Shown here: one piece after another, positions 3,447-14,722 of the stretch
How positions within the stretch are numbered: position 1 is the stretch's first letter
Layout: each line of letters starts with the position of its first letter
Position numbers and translations under genes: made by a program
The notes under the pieces: generated by a model
Told to the model about the DNA's origin: nothing
Databases searched by the model: none
The model's input: only the letters and a program-made list of their open reading frames with translations
IMG/VR virus record: IMGVR_UViG_3300020054_000693
Coordinates: 1-23,469 of that record
From: a virus
Length of the DNA stretch: 23,469 nt
Direction: 5' to 3' (one strand)

Positions 3447-5444
3447 ATGAGAGCTTTTGCGTCGTTGGTGATTGCGCTTGTTCTGGCAGCGAGCGCATCG
3501 TGGTCAGCCGAGTTGCCTGGGTACGGGGGTGGAACGCCTGGCGGCTCCGCTCGAGTCCACCCTGTGCAGTTCACTTCCAAAACCCCCGCTGGGATCTATT
3601 CGATCGGGCTGGCTTTTCCGGTCGCAGTCATGGATTTCGATCTGGGATCTGCGTTTTCTGGCGTTCTGTACGCATGCACCGATAGCAACGTAGACAGGGA
3701 CAACGACGGCGTCATCGACGCGACGGCTTCGTGCGACTCGCTGTCTACGCTTTCTGCGGACACGTCGTTGAGTGCGATGCGCGCGTACAAGTTGTGGTAC
3801 GTGATTGACATCAATACCGCTGAATCCGCCGGAAACGTGTCTACGCTTACAATCAAAGGCAGCTTTGATTCTGTGAGCTCTGGTGGTTCTGGTGGTTCTG
3901 TTGAATTTGACCAGCCTAATCCTACTCCCGAGTCAGGACAGCAGCTAGATGGCGTTACGATGAACCTGTGGAATCCCGCGACCGTCAGCGCAGGCTACGG
4001 AGTGGCTTACGGATCCAACAATCCTATCCCTGACGACCCTAGCGGGGGCACATTTGCAGCTTCCCCGGCAGGCGAGCCGGACAATATGATCGGCCAGTTT
4101 TACAACAAAACAGGCGTGAACGGTCTTCCGGTAAATCCTTATGAACATGCGATGGACAATTCCTACGAGCTTGCGTATAGAGCTACCGGAACTGGAAATG
4201 AAACCTGGCTCGAAAATAATATTGATCTGTTTGCGCCGGCCAATCAAGTCGTAGTCTCTGCTGGCACATTCAATCCTGCTGTTGGGTCTACGGTCACATT
4301 TGATTTCAACAATTCTGAGACTACTGAAAATGTAGATTCCAGCGAGTCTTGGGGATATGTGACTGCTTGGGATTCTGGGACAAGGACGTTGACTTGGATA
4401 CAAGATTATGGAGATCTGACGAATGCGCCTAACCCAGTTACTGTGACAGACGCATCATCGAATACGGCTACTTTTGATGAGTCTACCGTTGTTCATAAAA
4501 ACAACGGTCTAGTTTCAACTGATCCGCTCAACGGGCAATGGCGTTACAGGCAAATGGAGTGGAAAACAAAAGTGAATAGAGTCAGCAATTTCTGGATTAC
4601 CAATCCATTAGCTCAAGATTCTATTTTGAGAATGGGATATTACGATGAACCCGTCTCTGCTAGTGCTGCTGAGAATGGCATGGCTCATCAAAATGCAGCT
4701 ATTGAGTACAACGGGAACCCCGGTTCTTCATTGAATATCGGGATCAACAGAAACAACGTATATGCGCTGAACGTAAGAAGCCAAACTCTAGGTAGGGTTA
4801 TCAGTTCTGCGCTTCCAACTGGCAAGTTTGACCCGACTGGATCTAATCAATGGGCGCAAAGAGGACTCGTAGTAGGCCATGACTTTGGCGAGTCTATTTA
4901 TTATGGAGGCACAACAGCCATTCAGATTGCACAGCCGACAGCATCTTCCGCGACAGCAAAGCACAATAGCTTGAGATACGGTTTGCATATTCAGAATCAG
5001 CAAGGGTATGGCAGCGGTGGTGCCGTTATTCAAATAGACGCTCAAGACTGCTCTGGAGGCGGTTTGAATATTTTCGGCGCGGCTGGGCAATGCAGATTTG
5101 GCCAGGGGACTTACGGCAATGTCGTAGTAGGAGGAGGCGATTGGAACTCTGGGCATATTGCATTTACAAACACGAATGCCAGCGGCGATCATTTGTACAG
5201 GGATCAGGCAGATGAGGTTTTGAGAATCACAACAGATGCGTACCCGAGACACGCTGCTGAGGCTGCTGGATCGACTCTCGTCGTAGGCGACCAGATTCTG
5301 ACCGGAGCATTGACGACCGCGGACCCTTGCACCAGCAAGCCTGAAGCATACGTCTTTTACAATGACACGAGCGATTACTATTGCTTTTGCAACGGAGCCG
5401 GTGACGACGTTCAGATGCACAGCCCTGCGACAGCCTGTTTCTAA
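3447..5444 (+). CDS. Tail spike/fibre-like protein with N-terminal signal peptide
   Basis: The 665-residue protein starts at ATG 3447, with GGAG at 3437-3440 and a 6-nt spacer; an in-frame TTG at 3435 is less likely. Residues 1-21 look like a Sec signal: one Arg, a hydrophobic core, then small residues ASASWSA before ELPGYGG. Residues 79-91 carry a D-x-N-x-D-x-D-x-D-G-x-x-D calcium loop between Cys77 and Cys96. The body is rich in Gly, Ser, Thr and Asn, as in beta-rich tail proteins. The last 40 residues form a Cys-rich cap (about four Cys plus FYNDTSDYYC). I recognise this cap type only loosely from environmental phage tail proteins. Its place between the large virion protein and lysis genes supports host recognition. 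A secretion signal on a virion protein is odd. Confidence 0.6.
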   Translation: MRAFASLVIALVLAASASWSAELPGYGGGTPGGSARVHPVQFTSKTPAGIYSIGLAFPVAVMDFDLGSAFSGVLYACTDSNVDRDNDGVIDATASCDSLSTLSADTSLSAMRAYKLWYVIDINTAESAGNVSTLTIKGSFDSVSSGGSGGSVEFDQPNPTPESGQQLDGVTMNLWNPATVSAGYGVAYGSNNPIPDDPSGGTFAASPAGEPDNMIGQFYNKTGVNGLPVNPYEHAMDNSYELAYRATGTGNETWLENNIDLFAPANQVVVSAGTFNPAVGSTVTFDFNNSETTENVDSSESWGYVTAWDSGTRTLTWIQDYGDLTNAPNPVTVTDASSNTATFDESTVVHKNNGLVSTDPLNGQWRYRQMEWKTKVNRVSNFWITNPLAQDSILRMGYYDEPVSASAAENGMAHQNAAIEYNGNPGSSLNIGINRNNVYALNVRSQTLGRVISSALPTGKFDPTGSNQWAQRGLVVGHDFGESIYYGGTTAIQIAQPTASSATAKHNSLRYGLHIQNQQGYGSGGAVIQIDAQDCSGGGLNIFGAAGQCRFGQGTYGNVVVGGGDWNSGHIAFTNTNASGDHLYRDQADEVLRITTDAYPRHAAEAAGSTLVVGDQILTGALTTADPCTSKPEAYVFYNDTSDYYCFCNGAGDDVQMHSPATACF

Positions 5445-5695
5445 TGGAGGGCAACGGCCACCAGCGCGAGCTTGGGATGTTCTTTCAGCAGGTGGAAGAA
5501 TTGCGTCATGATTACAGAAACTTGAAGACTGTGATTGACATGATGGACGCAAATCAACGCCGTCTCGAGCGGGAGTTGATGGAGTTGTGCTCTGAGCTGA
5601 AGACATTCCAAGCAAAGACGGCCACGCTTTGCGCAGTTTCGGTTGCAGTTGTGACCGGAGCGGCGTGGGGCATTGAGCTGTGGGCGAAACTCTGA
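5444..5695 (+). CDS. Coiled-coil plus C-terminal membrane-anchor protein (XhlA/holin-associated type)
   Basis: The 83-residue protein starts at an ATG overlapping the upstream stop (TAATG), so coupled translation is likely. Residues about 14-56 form a charged amphipathic helix (EELRHDYRNLKTVIDMMDANQRRLERELMEL), probably coiled coil. A single hydrophobic segment follows at about 60-80 (LCAVSVAVVTGAAWGIELWA). This layout, cytoplasmic coil then one C-terminal membrane helix, matches haemolysin XhlA-like proteins beside phage lysis genes. It lies immediately before the endolysin, with a TGATG junction. A direct holin role cannot be shown from sequence. Confidence 0.6.
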   Translation: MEGNGHQRELGMFFQQVEELRHDYRNLKTVIDMMDANQRRLERELMELCSELKTFQAKTATLCAVSVAVVTGAAWGIELWAKL

Positions 5696-9058: not shown

Positions 9059-10060
9059 CTACCTAATTCCAGCCCTTTGATTGATTAGCGTGCGCCATGC
9101 GAGCGCAGCCACGCTTGGAACTTGTCCGTTGCCGATGCACCGCAGTCGGTCCATCCGAGCGGCCACCCCATCAGCCACTCGACCCACGTCGGGTTCAGTT
9201 TGCCACCAACCTGCGCGGCGAGCGTCGGCGTGTTCCGCGTCGCTTTGGATGGCGCGTTCGTCTCTTTCGCATTGTGCGCCGTCGGCGTCGGCCACAAATT
9301 GCGCGCTACCGCCGCCGGAAGGCTCGACTGCCTGCCTCCGCGCGCGATCGTCCCCGCCCCCGGCGGCCCTTTCCAATCTCTTGAATTGGGCGTCGGCCAC
9401 AAATTCTTTCGTGCCATCGTTTGCAAACTGGGACGCACCTTGCCTTTTCTTCCCATGCCGCCGCCTTGATTCGTCCCATAACTTGATGCGCTGGGCGTTG
9501 GCAGCCACGCCTGACAGCCTGGGTGCTTCATCATCGAGGGTGACAACTGATTCGCTGTGGCTGTGGGCGTCGCAAGCCAAGATCCAGATCCGGTCACGCT
9601 TGTGAGGTGCGCCGGCATGGTGCGCTCCGACAACTCCCCATTCAGCATCGAACCCCATCGAGGCAATATCGCAGAGTACGCGGTCGAATCCTCGAGAAGT
9701 GAGCATTGGACTGTTCTCAATGAATGCGTATCTGGGTCGAACGTCGCAAATGATGCGCGCCATTTCTGACCACAGTCCTGACTTCTCGCCTGCAATTCCT
9801 GCGCCTTGACCGGCTGCGCTGATGTCCTGACACGGGAATCCTCCCGAAACGACGTCAACAACGCCTCGCCATGCGCGTCCATCAAACGTCCGCACGTCAT
9901 CCCAGACCGGGAACGGCTCAAGGCATCCATCGTTTTGGCGTGCCAGCAAAACGTCTCGTGCGTATGGGTCGAACTCGACAGCGCAGACCGTTCGCCATCC
10001 GAGCAAGCGGCTTCCGAGTATTCCTCCACCAGCGCCCGCGAAAAGTGCCAGCTCATTCAT
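9059..10060 (-). CDS. dcm: DNA (cytosine-5) methyltransferase
   Basis: The 333-residue protein is called from ATG 10060 (MNELALFAGAGGG), the usual family start; GTG 10069 would add three residues. Motif I is residues 5-13 (ALFAGAGGG). The catalytic motif IV is G73-G-F-P-C77-Q. Motif VI is F113-I-E-N-S117 and motif VIII H153-K-R-D-R-I-W. Motif X is at the C-terminus (RCIGNGQVPSVAALAWRTL). Between VIII and X is a low-complexity, repeat-bearing target-recognition region with several F-V-A-D-A units. Orphan phage Dcm enzymes modify phage DNA against host restriction. It is the last gene of the minus operon with ssb and erf. A second frame is open through almost all of it. Confidence 0.9.
   Translation of the reverse strand: MNELALFAGAGGGILGSRLLGWRTVCAVEFDPYARDVLLARQNDGCLEPFPVWDDVRTFDGRAWRGVVDVVSGGFPCQDISAAGQGAGIAGEKSGLWSEMARIICDVRPRYAFIENSPMLTSRGFDRVLCDIASMGFDAEWGVVGAHHAGAPHKRDRIWILACDAHSHSESVVTLDDEAPRLSGVAANAQRIKLWDESRRRHGKKRQGASQFANDGTKEFVADAQFKRLERAAGGGDDRARRQAVEPSGGGSAQFVADADGAQCERDERAIQSDAEHADARRAGWWQTEPDVGRVADGVAARMDRLRCIGNGQVPSVAALAWRTLINQRAGIR
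9085..10056 (-). other. Long second frame within dcm (possible overprinted gene)
   Basis: In the +1 frame relative to dcm, an uninterrupted 323-residue reading runs from ATG 10056, four bases after the dcm ATG, to 9085. It begins MSWHFSRALVEEYSEA, has repeated WPTP-type units and ends with LNPTWVEWLMGWPLGWTD. From memory, proteins with this N-terminus and this C-terminal motif are widely deposited from phages. They are possibly just this same alternative frame of dcm homologues. Stop-free length and a composition resembling a recurrent family argue for caution before discarding it. The true dcm motifs are all in the other frame. Expression is unproven. Confidence 0.35.
9284..9405 (-). repeat. 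17-bp direct repeats in the dcm target-recognition region
   Basis: GGCGTCGGCCACAAATT occurs exactly at 9284-9300 and 9389-9405, 105 bp (35 codons) apart, so both copies are read in the same dcm frame (FVADA). Degenerate relatives near 9494 and 9566 encode VAANA and ACDA. The repeats sit between motifs VIII and X, where specificity is set. They could allow recombination-driven change of target recognition. Confidence 0.7.
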
Positions 10061-10106
10061 CGAATCCACTTTTTCTTTTGATGCCCATCAATTCCACCAA
10101 CCCCGC

Positions 10107-10382
10107 TCATTCTTCCCAATGAACGGGACAATGATAAGCCTCAACTGCACATGTGCATTTGCTGCTTCCCAATGCTGTTTCGAGCTCGCGAATGCGAGCG
10201 TCCGCTTGCGTCTGCCGGCGCGTATGAAACGCGCTCGTCGATGCGTGGTACTCGCTCCAAAGCTCGAGGAGTTTGTACTCCATCAAATCAAGCGGGTTGT
10301 GTTCAGGCGCGCATTTCTGCTCAGCCCAGAGCCGAGCCATCGTCACGTCGTCAAGGTTGGGCTGTCTCACTTCGGCTCCCAC
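10107..10382 (-). CDS. Hypothetical protein between erf and dcm
   Basis: The protein has 91 residues from GTG 10382, which overlaps the erf 3' end by 16 nt; ATG at MARLWAEQ would be shorter. The N-terminal half is helical and acidic (LDLMEYKLLELWSEYH) and the middle basic (TRRQTQADARIRELE). The C-terminus has a C-x-C-x(6)-H-C-P-V-H pattern (KCTCAVEAYHCPVHWEE) that could bind a metal. I do not recognise the family. Operon position suggests an accessory function in recombination or modification. Confidence 0.5.
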   Translation of the reverse strand: MGAEVRQPNLDDVTMARLWAEQKCAPEHNPLDLMEYKLLELWSEYHASTSAFHTRRQTQADARIRELETALGSSKCTCAVEAYHCPVHWEE

Positions 10383-10984
10383 TCCTGGATCGCAGAAATC
10401 GTTCGACCAAGATCAGAATCAAGCAGCTCAATCGGACTGCTGTATCCAAAGCGCTTTGCAATCTCAACGATGATTTCCGTTGCGCCGATATCGTCACCGA
10501 TCTCTTTTGCGCGGACGCTGGCTGCGTGCTTCACCTTATTTCGGCTTTCGGCGCTCATGGCCGGCGCTTTGCGCTGCCGTCTGGGCTCCTTGACGACGGG
10601 TAAAGAACCCCGCCCAGACGCAGACTCGCCGTCATCGTCTTCTTCTGTGACCAGACAAAGTGCGCCCGAAATTCCATACCTTCGGGCGTAAGACACAGCC
10701 GCGCACGCACCTTGCGGATCGTGCTTGGAAAGCGGAACGGTGAACTTGTATTCGATGTACTCACCGCTCGCGTGGATCACGCGCGTGATGACGCCGGCCT
10801 TGTCTTCTTCTGACACAGGAAACTGCATCACGCCCAGCCCGTGCTTCGACAAAATCGGATCGATCACTCGATGAATCGCCGCAAGCGACGCAAAACGACT
10901 TTTGAAATGAGGGTTGATGCTGTCGAACGCGATCGACGGGCATTCGGACTGAAACGAAATCAAAGCGCTGTTCAGATTTTTCAT
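10367..10984 (-). CDS. erf: ERF-family single-strand annealing recombinase
   Basis: The 205-residue protein starts at ATG 10984, with GGAG 8 nt upstream on the minus strand. The ERF core is clear: NPHFKSRFASLAAI (about 24-37), KHGLGVMQ, SGEYIEYKFTVPL, then DPQGACAAVSYARRYGISGALCLVTEEDDDG (about 89-119). The C-terminal part is basic and helical. ERF (P22 Erf type) proteins anneal complementary single strands and promote phage recombination and circularisation. It pairs functionally with the upstream ssb and, on the other strand, the RusA-like resolvase. Its leader is the pseudoknot-capable ssb-erf gap, so translational control is plausible. Confidence 0.88.
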   Translation of the reverse strand: MKNLNSALISFQSECPSIAFDSINPHFKSRFASLAAIHRVIDPILSKHGLGVMQFPVSEEDKAGVITRVIHASGEYIEYKFTVPLSKHDPQGACAAVSYARRYGISGALCLVTEEDDDGESASGRGSLPVVKEPRRQRKAPAMSAESRNKVKHAASVRAKEIGDDIGATEIIVEIAKRFGYSSPIELLDSDLGRTISAIQEWEPK

Positions 10985-11000
10985 GATGGGATCTCCAGGT

Positions 11001-11062
11001 GGTGGAGCGGGCTCCCAATGAGGCTACCCAGACCCGCTCCACCGGAGGAGGCTGGGTAGCCT
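11001..11062 (-). promoter_or_regulatory. H-type pseudoknot in the ssb-erf intercistronic mRNA
   Basis: Two perfect 11-bp complementary pairs are interleaved. Stem 1 is 11052-11062 with 11021-11031; stem 2 is 11033-11043 with 11001-11011. On the minus-strand RNA the loops are 8, 1 and 9 nt, the classic H-type geometry with two coaxial stems. The 5' arm begins in the ssb stop codon, and the erf Shine-Dalgarno GGAG lies four bases after the 3' arm. It fills the whole gap between the genes. A translational operator for erf, perhaps bound by SSB, is inferred. Confidence 0.75.
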
Positions 11063-11435
11063 AAAACGGGATCTCTTGGTCTTCGATGCCGTCCTGCTGG
11101 CGCGGCATCTTCGGGCTGTCGGACTCTACGTACTTCGTGATCTCAAGATCGTCAGCGCGGATCTCAAGCGAAGTTTTGCTTTCGCCTTTTGAGTCGTACT
11201 GACGTGCGGAAAACGATCCGACCACAGTCACCGCGGCTCCCTTCTTCAGCAGATGCTCGAGCGCCGACCCGCGCTTGCCCCAAACTGAGCAGCGAAACCA
11301 AGTCGGCACCTCTGCCTGCCGGCTCGGCTGGTTTGCCAAGCTAAACTCTGTGACGGTGGATTGACCGATTGTCTTGGTTTCAGCATCTCGACCGATGCGT
11401 CCGCTCACCATAATGCGAGCAATGTTTTGTGCCAC
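11061..11435 (-). CDS. ssb: Single-stranded DNA-binding protein
   Basis: The 124-residue protein starts at GTG 11435, five bases after a strong AAGGAGG (11447-11441). The OB-fold pattern of bacterial/phage SSB is visible: NIARIMVSGRIGRDAETKTI, TWFRCSVWGKRGSALEHLLKKGAAVTVVGSFSARQY and SLEIRADDLEI. The tail is short and ends in the acidic tip DQEIPF, which in this family docks partner proteins. It protects single strands during replication and should cooperate with ERF encoded next. The stop codon is part of the pseudoknot in the following gap. Confidence 0.9.
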   Translation of the reverse strand: MAQNIARIMVSGRIGRDAETKTIGQSTVTEFSLANQPSRQAEVPTWFRCSVWGKRGSALEHLLKKGAAVTVVGSFSARQYDSKGESKTSLEIRADDLEITKYVESDSPKMPRQQDGIEDQEIPF

Positions 11436-12779: not shown

Positions 12780-13119
12780 TTGGATCAATTCTCACGCGCG
12801 CGTGAACGATCCCGAAACCTCGAAGGCTGCGGCAGAGCGCACGGCCTTGCGCGCCGGCTCAGCGAAAGCGTCTATTCTGCGCGTGCTCGCTGTCCGATGG
12901 GGTGGCCCAATGACCTTTGAGGAGGTCGCTCGCGCGGCGAACATCAGCGAGTCGAGCGCCTGGAAGCGCTTGAGCGATCTCAAACGAGAGGGTCGAGTGG
13001 TCGTCGTCGATCAGGCCGGCGTGACGCGGCAAAATTGCATGGCTAGCCGGTACGAGCTGTCCGCGGTGGGCGCGTCGGATATTCTGAAGCTGGACGGGGG
13101 TGGCAATGAACGGGATTGA
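12763..13119 (+). CDS. Winged-helix DNA-binding protein
   Basis: The 118-residue protein starts at ATG 12763 after a strong AGGGGGGAG; an in-frame upstream TTG is less likely. A winged helix is visible at about 28-85: AKASILRVLAVRWGGPMTFEEVARAANISESSAWKRLSDLKREGRVVVVDQAG. The N-terminal DPETSKAAAERTALRAGSAKASILRVL resembles a common phage early-gene wHTH. It probably acts as a transcription or replication-initiation accessory factor. It overlaps the replication-like gene downstream by 14 nt. Confidence 0.65.
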   Translation: MNEQIDWINSHARVNDPETSKAAAERTALRAGSAKASILRVLAVRWGGPMTFEEVARAANISESSAWKRLSDLKREGRVVVVDQAGVTRQNCMASRYELSAVGASDILKLDGGGNERD

Positions 13120-13495
13120 TTGGCCTCAGGTGGTGGAGGCTTTCGGCCACTACGGCAAGCGGGTGACCCCGACGCTGCGCGGCGCTCGCAAGCGGCTCAT
13201 CGAGAGGCTCGCAGAGGAGTACTCGACTGAGGATCTGGTCAGCGCGGTTCACGGCTACGTTCATTTCCACAAGGGTCTGGACGAGCGTAACGGCTTTGAT
13301 CCGCGTCAATGGTTCACGCCCGAGAGCGTGTTCCGTTTTGAGAAGCTTGAGGGCCGGATTGAGCTGGGAATGGACGGCCCGTGGCAAAAGCCGCTGTCGC
13401 ACGAGGAGCAGGTCAAAGCGCGTCAGAAGGCCGCACAAGAGCGCCTGAACGCGGCGCGCGCAAATCGGGAGGGCAGGCTGCGGTCAGTTAGCTAA
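13106..13495 (+). CDS. Replication-organiser-like protein (C-terminal domain type)
   Basis: The 129-residue protein starts at ATG 13106. The region ARKRLIERLAEEYSTEDLVSAVHGYVHFHK, then DPRQWFTPESVFRFEKLEGRIE, resembles the conserved C-terminal domain found in phage replisome-organiser proteins (pattern RKLIRARLKEGY, YLRPETLFG). The basic, Gln/Ala-rich C-terminus follows (KARQKAAQERLNAARANREGR). The DNA-binding part may be supplied by the wHTH protein encoded just upstream, a split of the usual two-domain protein. Loading the host helicase onto an origin is the expected role. Confidence in the family is moderate. Confidence 0.5.
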   Translation: MNGIDWPQVVEAFGHYGKRVTPTLRGARKRLIERLAEEYSTEDLVSAVHGYVHFHKGLDERNGFDPRQWFTPESVFRFEKLEGRIELGMDGPWQKPLSHEEQVKARQKAAQERLNAARANREGRLRSVS

Positions 13496-13507
13496 GCTGC
13501 TCTCGCG

Positions 13508-13738
13508 CGATCGAGTGGGCTGCTGGGCTCGATCGTCAATGCACTTACCAGCAGCGGGTTGGGTGGAAGTCCATTGCAGGTGCAACCCCGCGTCGAAGTC
13601 GTTGAGGGGTGATGGAGCGCCAGGCTTATTGTGGCGCGGAAGTAGAACGACCAGCAGGCCGGGAGCAGCCCCTGCCCTGCCGATGGGGCTCTCCAATCTG
13701 AGCGCCGGGGGACGAAACTCGAGTTGATGCTTTGCATC
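13508..13738 (+). ncRNA. Candidate structured RNA with two pseudoknots
   Basis: The 312-base gap between genes (13496-13807) holds mutually compatible helices. P1 is 13508-13515/13528-13535. Eight bases of its loop (13519-13526) pair perfectly with 13548-13555, forming an H-type pseudoknot. P2, 13556-13561/13583-13588, starts at the next base. P3, 13598-13603/13646-13651, encloses P4, 13617-13622/13632-13637. P5 is 13662-13672/13685-13694, with one bulged C, and its loop 13676-13680 pairs with 13654-13658. P6 is 13726-13730/13734-13738. Unpaired segments are purine-rich on the plus strand (GGAAGT, CGAAG), the direction of its neighbours. Short frames here lack coding character. The family is unknown to me; an intron-like or regulatory RNA is possible. 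Confidence 0.6.
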
Positions 13739-13807
13739 GCGGGATTCGGGATTCGTCTCTTCGGGGATCCATCTGAACACACTTCAGAGTCTTTGAATCA
13801 CACAGCA

Positions 13808-13999
13808 ATGCAGTCATCTACAAGTAGAACGCAAGCCTTGAAATCACGGGCCAAACGCATGATGCGTCGGATTGAAGATGAGATTGGCCCAGTTCAAAGC
13901 GAGTGGTCAAACAAAGCCAGGATTGATCTGTTTTCTGAGCTGATTCAGGAAATTGAGCTCGCAATCGATGAAGCGAAGGAGTTGACGTTTGGAAGTTGA
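13808..13999 (+). CDS. Small hypothetical helical protein
   Basis: The 63-residue protein starts at ATG 13808, though TTG 13793 in frame is also possible; neither has a good ribosome site. It has a basic N-terminus (TSRTQALKSRAKRMMRRIEDE) and an acidic, amphipathic C-terminal helix (ARIDLFSELIQEIELAIDEAKELT). The 3' end carries AAGGAG for the next gene and overlaps it by 11 nt, which supports translation here. No family is recognised. Confidence 0.5.
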   Translation: MQSSTSRTQALKSRAKRMMRRIEDEIGPVQSEWSNKARIDLFSELIQEIELAIDEAKELTFGS

Positions 14000-14348
14000 G
14001 CGCCCGAAACGGCTGGAATTCGGTAGTGCGACCCGCAAAAGTTTGGCCGTGCTCAGGGCCGTAGCCTCGAGCAAATACGGGATCAAGACGCGCGAGATTG
14101 CAGAATTTGCGCATCTTGATGTCAAAACTGTGCAGCACCATCTCCGCATTCTGCGTGCTGCGGGCGTTGTCATGTCGAACGGATCGGAACCCATTGCGGA
14201 GCGGAACGAGGCGGGTCTGTTTGTAGCCGGCGGATCGATCGCGGGCGTGTGGAGCATCGAACCGAAATTCCTATTCGATCTCGTCGAAAATCATCTGGAC
14301 TGGCTGATCATGGTGCGCGAGCAGAAAGAAGAGGCCAAGCGGGTTTGA
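13989..14348 (+). CDS. Winged-helix regulator
   Basis: The 119-residue protein starts at TTG 13989, seven bases after AAGGAG (13976-13981). A winged HTH lies at about 14-60: ATRKSLAVLRAVASSKYGIKTREIAEFAHLDVKTVQHHLRILRAAGVVMSNG, of ArsR/IclR-like fold, with VKTVQHHLRIL as recognition helix. A possible ligand or dimer region follows (AGGSIAGVWSIEPKFLFDLVENHLDW). It is the third HTH protein of the rightward early cluster and overlaps the RusA-like gene by TTGA. It may switch early to late transcription. Confidence 0.65.
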   Translation: MEVERPKRLEFGSATRKSLAVLRAVASSKYGIKTREIAEFAHLDVKTVQHHLRILRAAGVVMSNGSEPIAERNEAGLFVAGGSIAGVWSIEPKFLFDLVENHLDWLIMVREQKEEAKRV

Positions 14349-14722
14349 GTTATCTGCTCGACGTGACCATTCCGAAGCTGCCCGACCTCCAAGTTGCCGC
14401 AGCCAAAGGCCATTGGCGGACACGCTACGCGCAAAAAAAAGCGTGGCACAAGCTGGTGTCAGATTTGGTGCTGGCTGATCATTACGTGCCCGATCAGCCT
14501 TTGTCTAAAGCCGAGCTCGAGTGCATTCGCTACAGCACTCGAGAGCCTGATCGAGACAATCTGGCGTCGAGTTTCAAGGCAATCATCGATGCCTTAGTGA
14601 ATCTGGAAATTCTTGAGGACGATCGGCCTTCGGTGGTGGGCAGCCCGACGTTTCGTTGGGAAGCGGCCAAGCGGGGGGAGGGTCGAGTGCGGGTGATTGT
14701 GCGTGCCGTTGCAGATGATTGA
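14345..14722 (+). CDS. rusA: RusA-like Holliday junction resolvase
   Basis: The 125-residue protein starts at TTG 14345, overlapping the previous stop (TTGA). The RusA signature is intact: P68-D69-R70-D71-N72, K78, I-D82-A-L-V, then E91-D92-D93 (DRDNLASSFKAIIDALVNLEILEDDRPSVV). These Asp residues bind the metal that cuts four-way junctions. The N-terminal beta region (SYLLDVTIPKLPDLQ) and its length fit the family. It should resolve recombination or replication intermediates before packaging, acting with ERF and SSB encoded on the opposite strand. Confidence 0.85.
   Translation: MSYLLDVTIPKLPDLQVAAAKGHWRTRYAQKKAWHKLVSDLVLADHYVPDQPLSKAELECIRYSTREPDRDNLASSFKAIIDALVNLEILEDDRPSVVGSPTFRWEAAKRGEGRVRVIVRAVADD

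Follow-up and report, generated by a model that had tools for sequence, protein, structure and literature searches.

The window analyzed here is a 23.5-kb IMG/VR virus record (23,469 nt) from an uncultured phage, and the element described below lies in its early operon. In the open reading frame (ORF) listing, the gene p131 stops at 13495, and the ATG at 13808 is the earliest credible start codon for the gene that follows, p91. The intervening 312-nt gap (13496 to 13807) agrees with a first-pass annotation of the same sequence, which had pointed to 312 bases without a credible gene. The genes and the spacer are arranged as follows.

13100 to 13495, + strand: p131, the gene upstream of the spacer, without a Pfam family
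13496 to 13807, + strand: gene-free spacer with the RNA, delimited by ORFs and by synteny in seven contigs
about 13508 to 13759, + strand: RNA domain inside the spacer, extending to 13776 if a long-range helix is real
13808 to 13999, + strand: p91, the gene downstream of the spacer, with its likely start at ATG 13808
13989 to 14348, + strand: winged-helix regulator gene (PF01022; E = 1.3e-5)
14336 to 14722, + strand: RusA-like resolvase gene (phrog_34; E = 3.9e-10)

By eye, p131 is similar to the C-terminal portion of phage replisome organizers. On the opposite strand, divergent from the RNA-bearing operon, ORFs at 9059 to 11435 resemble, again by eye, a DNA cytosine methyltransferase, an ERF-type annealing protein, and a single-strand binding protein.

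Relatives were found by protein searches with p131, which was present in seven contigs: the window, a near-twin (IMGVR_UViG_3300022934_000174; 96.8% identity over 13490 to 13800), L006, L027, and L028 (p131 identity of about 65%), and L030 and L035 (67% and 62%, respectively, both over the matched part). The comparison set thus comprises only seven sequences from about four lineages. A gene-free spacer of about 280 to 310 nt directly follows p131 in all seven. No homolog of p91 was detected in L030, where the RNA spacer (5391 to 5668) runs directly to a regulator gene. The L035 spacer aligns with that of the window over its whole length (type A); those of L006, L027, L028, and L030 align with one another and form a diverged type B. 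The window spacer, used as a query against phage and plasmid records, gave no convincing match, and neither did the L035 and L030 spacers against phage records only. A search with the motif GGGTGATGGA...GGAAGTAGAA recovered only the near-twin and matches in coding-like, AT-rich sequence that lacks the RNA; in genome contigs, p131 was not found and the single motif match was chance-like.

The candidate fold consists of the following elements.

13508 to 13515 (CGATCGAG) with 13528 to 13535 (CTCGATCG), + strand: P1, a hairpin of 8 bp
13519 to 13526 (GCTGCTGG) with 13548 to 13555 (CCAGCAGC), + strand: PK1, 8 bp, the P1 loop with a downstream strand
13540 to 13546 with 13578 to 13584, + strand: P2 (tentative), enclosing the 3' strand of PK1 and partly kept in L035
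13598 to 13603 with 13646 to 13651, + strand: P5, with six of six pairs kept in L035
13617 to 13637, + strand: P6, a hairpin with a 9-nt loop, inside P5
13654 to 13658 (GCAGG) with 13676 to 13680 (CCTGC), + strand: PK2, its 3' strand in the P8 loop
13667 to 13672 (AGCCCC) with 13685 to 13690 (GGGGCT), + strand: P8 (tentative), perfect in the window
13708 to 13716 with 13752 to 13759, 13718 to 13722 with 13746 to 13750, and 13726 to 13730 with 13734 to 13738, + strand: 3' terminal hairpin, from the window fold
13559 to 13567 with 13768 to 13776, + strand: possible long-range closing helix of 9 bp, with a counterpart in L035

P1 and PK1 form exactly the H-type pseudoknot (8 plus 8 bp, loops of 3, 1, and 12 nt) that the first-pass annotation had described. 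When the first 110 nt were dinucleotide-shuffled 600 times, no knot of such geometry and equal score appeared, and two helices of at least 8 bp within 60 nt arose in 10 of 500 shuffles. For each of the window, L035, L006, L028, and L030, no more than 0.7% of shuffles held a pseudoknot of like geometry and equal score (for L030, the best-scoring pseudoknot was the P2 pseudoknot, not PK1). Counterpart stems of P1 are present in L035, L006, L027, L028, and L030; the one in L035 is short and was read by hand in a shifted alignment, P1 being out of register in the MAFFT alignment of the window and L035. PK1 is kept in L035 in eight of eight pairs (GCCGGCGG/CTGCTGGC), with three two-sided and two one-sided changes, and in the near-twin one of its G-C pairs becomes G-U. 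L006, L027, L028, and L030 carry a PK1 counterpart of 6 to 7 bp at similar spacing (CGGCGGG/CCTGCCG in L006; CGGTGG/CTGCTG, weak with three G-U pairs, in L030). P2 has a clearer counterpart in L006 and L030 than in L035.

Covariation within type A (window, near-twin, and L035) was assessed by blind enumeration of the window helices that have five or more Watson-Crick pairs (74 in total), each of which was then sought in L035 by means of a plain MAFFT alignment. P5 and PK1 were the only helices fully kept in L035 with at least three two-sided changes, with P6 close behind; at least two such helices arose in 0.8% of 20,000 redistributions of the substitutions (null P = 0.008). Over the first 170 alignment columns, PK1 included, nine pairs were changed on both sides between the window and L035 (shuffle mean of 3.0; 0 of 500 shuffles reached 9), and slid-partner controls gave 0 to 2. 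P5 changes from GTCGTT/AACGAC in the window to CTCGCA/TGCGAG in L035 with three two-sided changes, and P6 reads GGCGCG/CGCGTC in L035, again with a 9-nt loop and with four two-sided changes after a one-base realignment. The near-twin has 10 differences in the RNA; by reading, none was seen to break an accepted helix, and two form a compensatory pair. This pair lies in PK2, where G13657C and C13677G swap a G-C for a C-G pair. PK2 is the second loop-to-upstream pairing proposed initially and is present in the window; 4 bp of it are possible in L035.

Toward the 3' end, P8 as read from the sequence is shortened in L035. A hairpin similar to the 3' terminal one is found in L035, and a long hairpin occupies the same place in L006 and L030. 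The RNA reaches at least 13759 with this hairpin, beyond the end at 13738 first assigned to it, and conservation stays high up to 13776. A helix GGGTTG/CAACCC, also part of the initial fold, is absent from L035. The possible closing helix (13559 to 13567 with 13768 to 13776) competes with a pairing of 13555 to 13563 with 13692 to 13700. The G-rich segment 13555 to 13567 can pair with either of two conserved motifs that resemble each other, TCCAATCTGA and TCCATCTGA (13692 to 13701 and 13768 to 13776).

Within type B, pairing amounted to 97.4% over P1, P2, and a third hairpin, and six pairs were changed on both sides versus 2.0 in shuffles (2/500), with 0 to 1 in slid controls; covariation of P1 was strong. 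Pairing between the loops of P1 and P2, which gives PK1, is possible over a distance of 24 nt in type B and 21 to 23 nt in type A. The type B P2 loop also has an alternative pairing downstream (TGCCGGT/ACCGGTA in L006; TGCTGG/CCAGCA in L030), in which L006 and L030 differ by one compensatory change and L028 keeps only five of seven pairs. In L006 (3376 to 3421) and L030 (5442 to 5482), the P2 loop can pair with either the P1 loop (PK1) or the downstream strand, the two pairings being mutually exclusive. With two such partners, the type B RNA could be a switch. The type A covariance model misses type B and vice versa; the link between the types therefore rests on place, gene order, and pseudoknot geometry. 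Tentatively, and with a probability well short of even, these RNAs could constitute a new phage structured-RNA family with two interlocked pseudoknots and a fixed early-operon place, in which 3' domains are swapped by lineage around a constant 5' core and type B is a possible switch.

Phage genomes are dense, and thus a 300-base gap that several lineages have preserved through compensatory change is the mark of a function. To our knowledge, few structured phage RNAs are understood. Compensatory base changes were above controls here, as expected of a structured RNA under selection, and on this comparison of sequences the spacer very probably encodes one. Wobble pairs on the + strand were far more often G-U than A-C, which indicates that the + strand is the one that folds and makes RNA likelier than single-stranded DNA. 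A protein-coding reading was ruled out by extension frames that are not shared and by 1- to 2-nt indels (gaps of 1, 2, and 3 nt separate the window from L035 within the RNA), and the spacer ORF matched no Pfam or PHROG family. The first-pass annotation had named protein-like conservation without covariation as the pattern that would speak against an RNA; compensatory changes, 1- to 2-nt indels, and the lack of a shared frame are what we observed.

That the structure arose by chance, or is what is left of a decayed gene, is very improbable. Nested fold energy is ordinary relative to shuffles (z = +0.71 for the window and −1.13 with the 3' hairpin included), the region is GC-rich, and 5-bp helices are common in shuffles, all of which speak for such an origin; helices of at least 6 bp number 16 versus 10.9 in shuffles, and 13 of 200 shuffles reach 16. 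The compensatory changes seen in three separate comparisons contradict it, as do frames that are not conserved. Since fold energy alone is not special, the density of complements, from which selection for RNA structure had originally been argued, carries little weight, being only slightly raised. Selection itself is supported by comparison, through compensatory change in P1, PK1, P5, P6, and PK2 and a place kept in seven contigs. A function at the DNA level, such as a folded single-stranded replication signal or origin beside the early genes, is improbable, though less so than chance. Single-stranded DNA would likewise keep intrastrand pairing and compensatory change, and the site in the early operon would suit it; however, the excess of G-U over A-C on one strand, the high G+C, and the lack of iterons and of direct repeats of at least 12 nt argue against it.

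What the RNA does is a choice chiefly between two modes of action. The first-pass annotation had suggested, as candidate roles, a decoy for a host defense, a regulatory element for the regulator and resolvase genes, or a degenerate ribozyme or intron. Promoter scans of the region found no promoter proper to the RNA, a terminator scan of the spacer (including the RNA 3' end) returned no terminator-like site on the + strand, and no known processing site, promoter, or terminator delimiting a discrete transcript was found. A terminator or sequestered start site that could serve as the expression platform of an attenuator or leader was also not found, and the p91 ATG, as read from the sequence, lies about 30 nt beyond the part that folds. 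With start, end, and attenuator signals lacking and the p91 start outside the fold, we slightly favor a released, protein-binding RNA over a cis-acting mRNA element; action as a released RNA has, in our judgment, a little less than an even chance. The less probable cis-acting element, which we still regard as a substantial possibility, would have the pseudoknot control elongation, decay, or translation of p91, the regulator, and RusA downstream, perhaps coupled to ribosomes ending at the p131 stop. Such an element would account for P1 starting 2 to 12 nt from that stop in every lineage and for the lack of an own promoter, and within one clade it fits the constant place in seven of seven contigs equally well. 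Against it stand the missing + strand terminator, the distance to the p91 start, and the persistence of the RNA in L030 despite the undetected p91 homolog; the first and the last of these we counted in favor of a released RNA, as we did the below-threshold match of L030 to an sRNA family (RF02932). Pseudoknot-driven stop-codon readthrough was ruled out because the stops (TAA, TGA, and TAG) and the downstream frames differ.

For the released RNA, we propose a noncoding RNA of about 250 to 280 nt that would be transcribed from the + strand between p131 and p91 within the early operon. Its predicted fold, supported by comparison, comprises a 5' hairpin with its loop paired to a downstream strand (P1 and PK1), the P5/P6 arm, PK2, and the 3' hairpin. 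Because the scans revealed neither a promoter nor a terminator belonging to the RNA itself, it would be cut out of the operon transcript, or persist in it, and would act folded. Most likely, it would be a small trans-acting RNA that binds a host or phage protein.

The RNA had been called unannotated, and in agreement no Rfam model reached its gathering threshold in the window, nor in L006, L027, L028, or L030; the L035 and L006 spacers gave nothing at an E value of 5. Rfam ribozyme and intron models had no match in the window even at an E value of 10, and ARAGORN detected no tRNA or tmRNA. The Pistol self-cleaving ribozyme is laid out as a hairpin, a P2 strand, a strand pairing with the hairpin loop, and the P2 closing strand. 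The window RNA shares this strand order; unlike Pistol, it has no Rfam match at that E value and type B is without a third stem. GOLLD, ROOL, and other ornate phage and bacterial RNAs are large and pseudoknotted, and some occur in phages. One published report (PMC12286853) also bears on such RNAs. Unlike GOLLD and ROOL, the window RNA is about 270 nt long and has no Rfam match.

The nearest known family is the Betaproteobacteria-1 RNA (RF02932), typed by Rfam as an sRNA. L030 matches its model over the full length (1 to 120) with 19.7 bits, well below the cut-off of 49.4, and an E value of 0.04 to 0.1 against all Rfam. Within the L030 genome, this was the sole match (E = 0.0024) and fell inside the spacer; unrelated plasmids (0.14 to 1.5 Mb) reach 18.4 to 18.6 bits. 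The model had no match in the window, L035, L006, L027, or L028, and nothing near the cut-off in the betaproteobacterial phages BcepC6B, BPP-1, KS9, DC1, and Bcep176. The RF02932 consensus used as a BLAST query gave weak matches, none of which was borne out at those places by the family's own model. The 3' domains of the phage RNA lie outside the model, and only L030 matches, below the cut-off. On the side of likeness, P1 and P2 of L030 align on the family P1 and P2, and the last bases of its P1 loop (CGGATAACGG) are complementary to the first bases of the hairpin loop that follows; in our own reading, the printed consensus likewise has P1, P2, and complementary loop ends (CAG/CUG). On these sequence features, we judge distant kinship of the L030-type RNA with RF02932 to be about evenly balanced; if it were confirmed, the Betaproteobacteria-1 RNA would gain a phage setting and a testable context.
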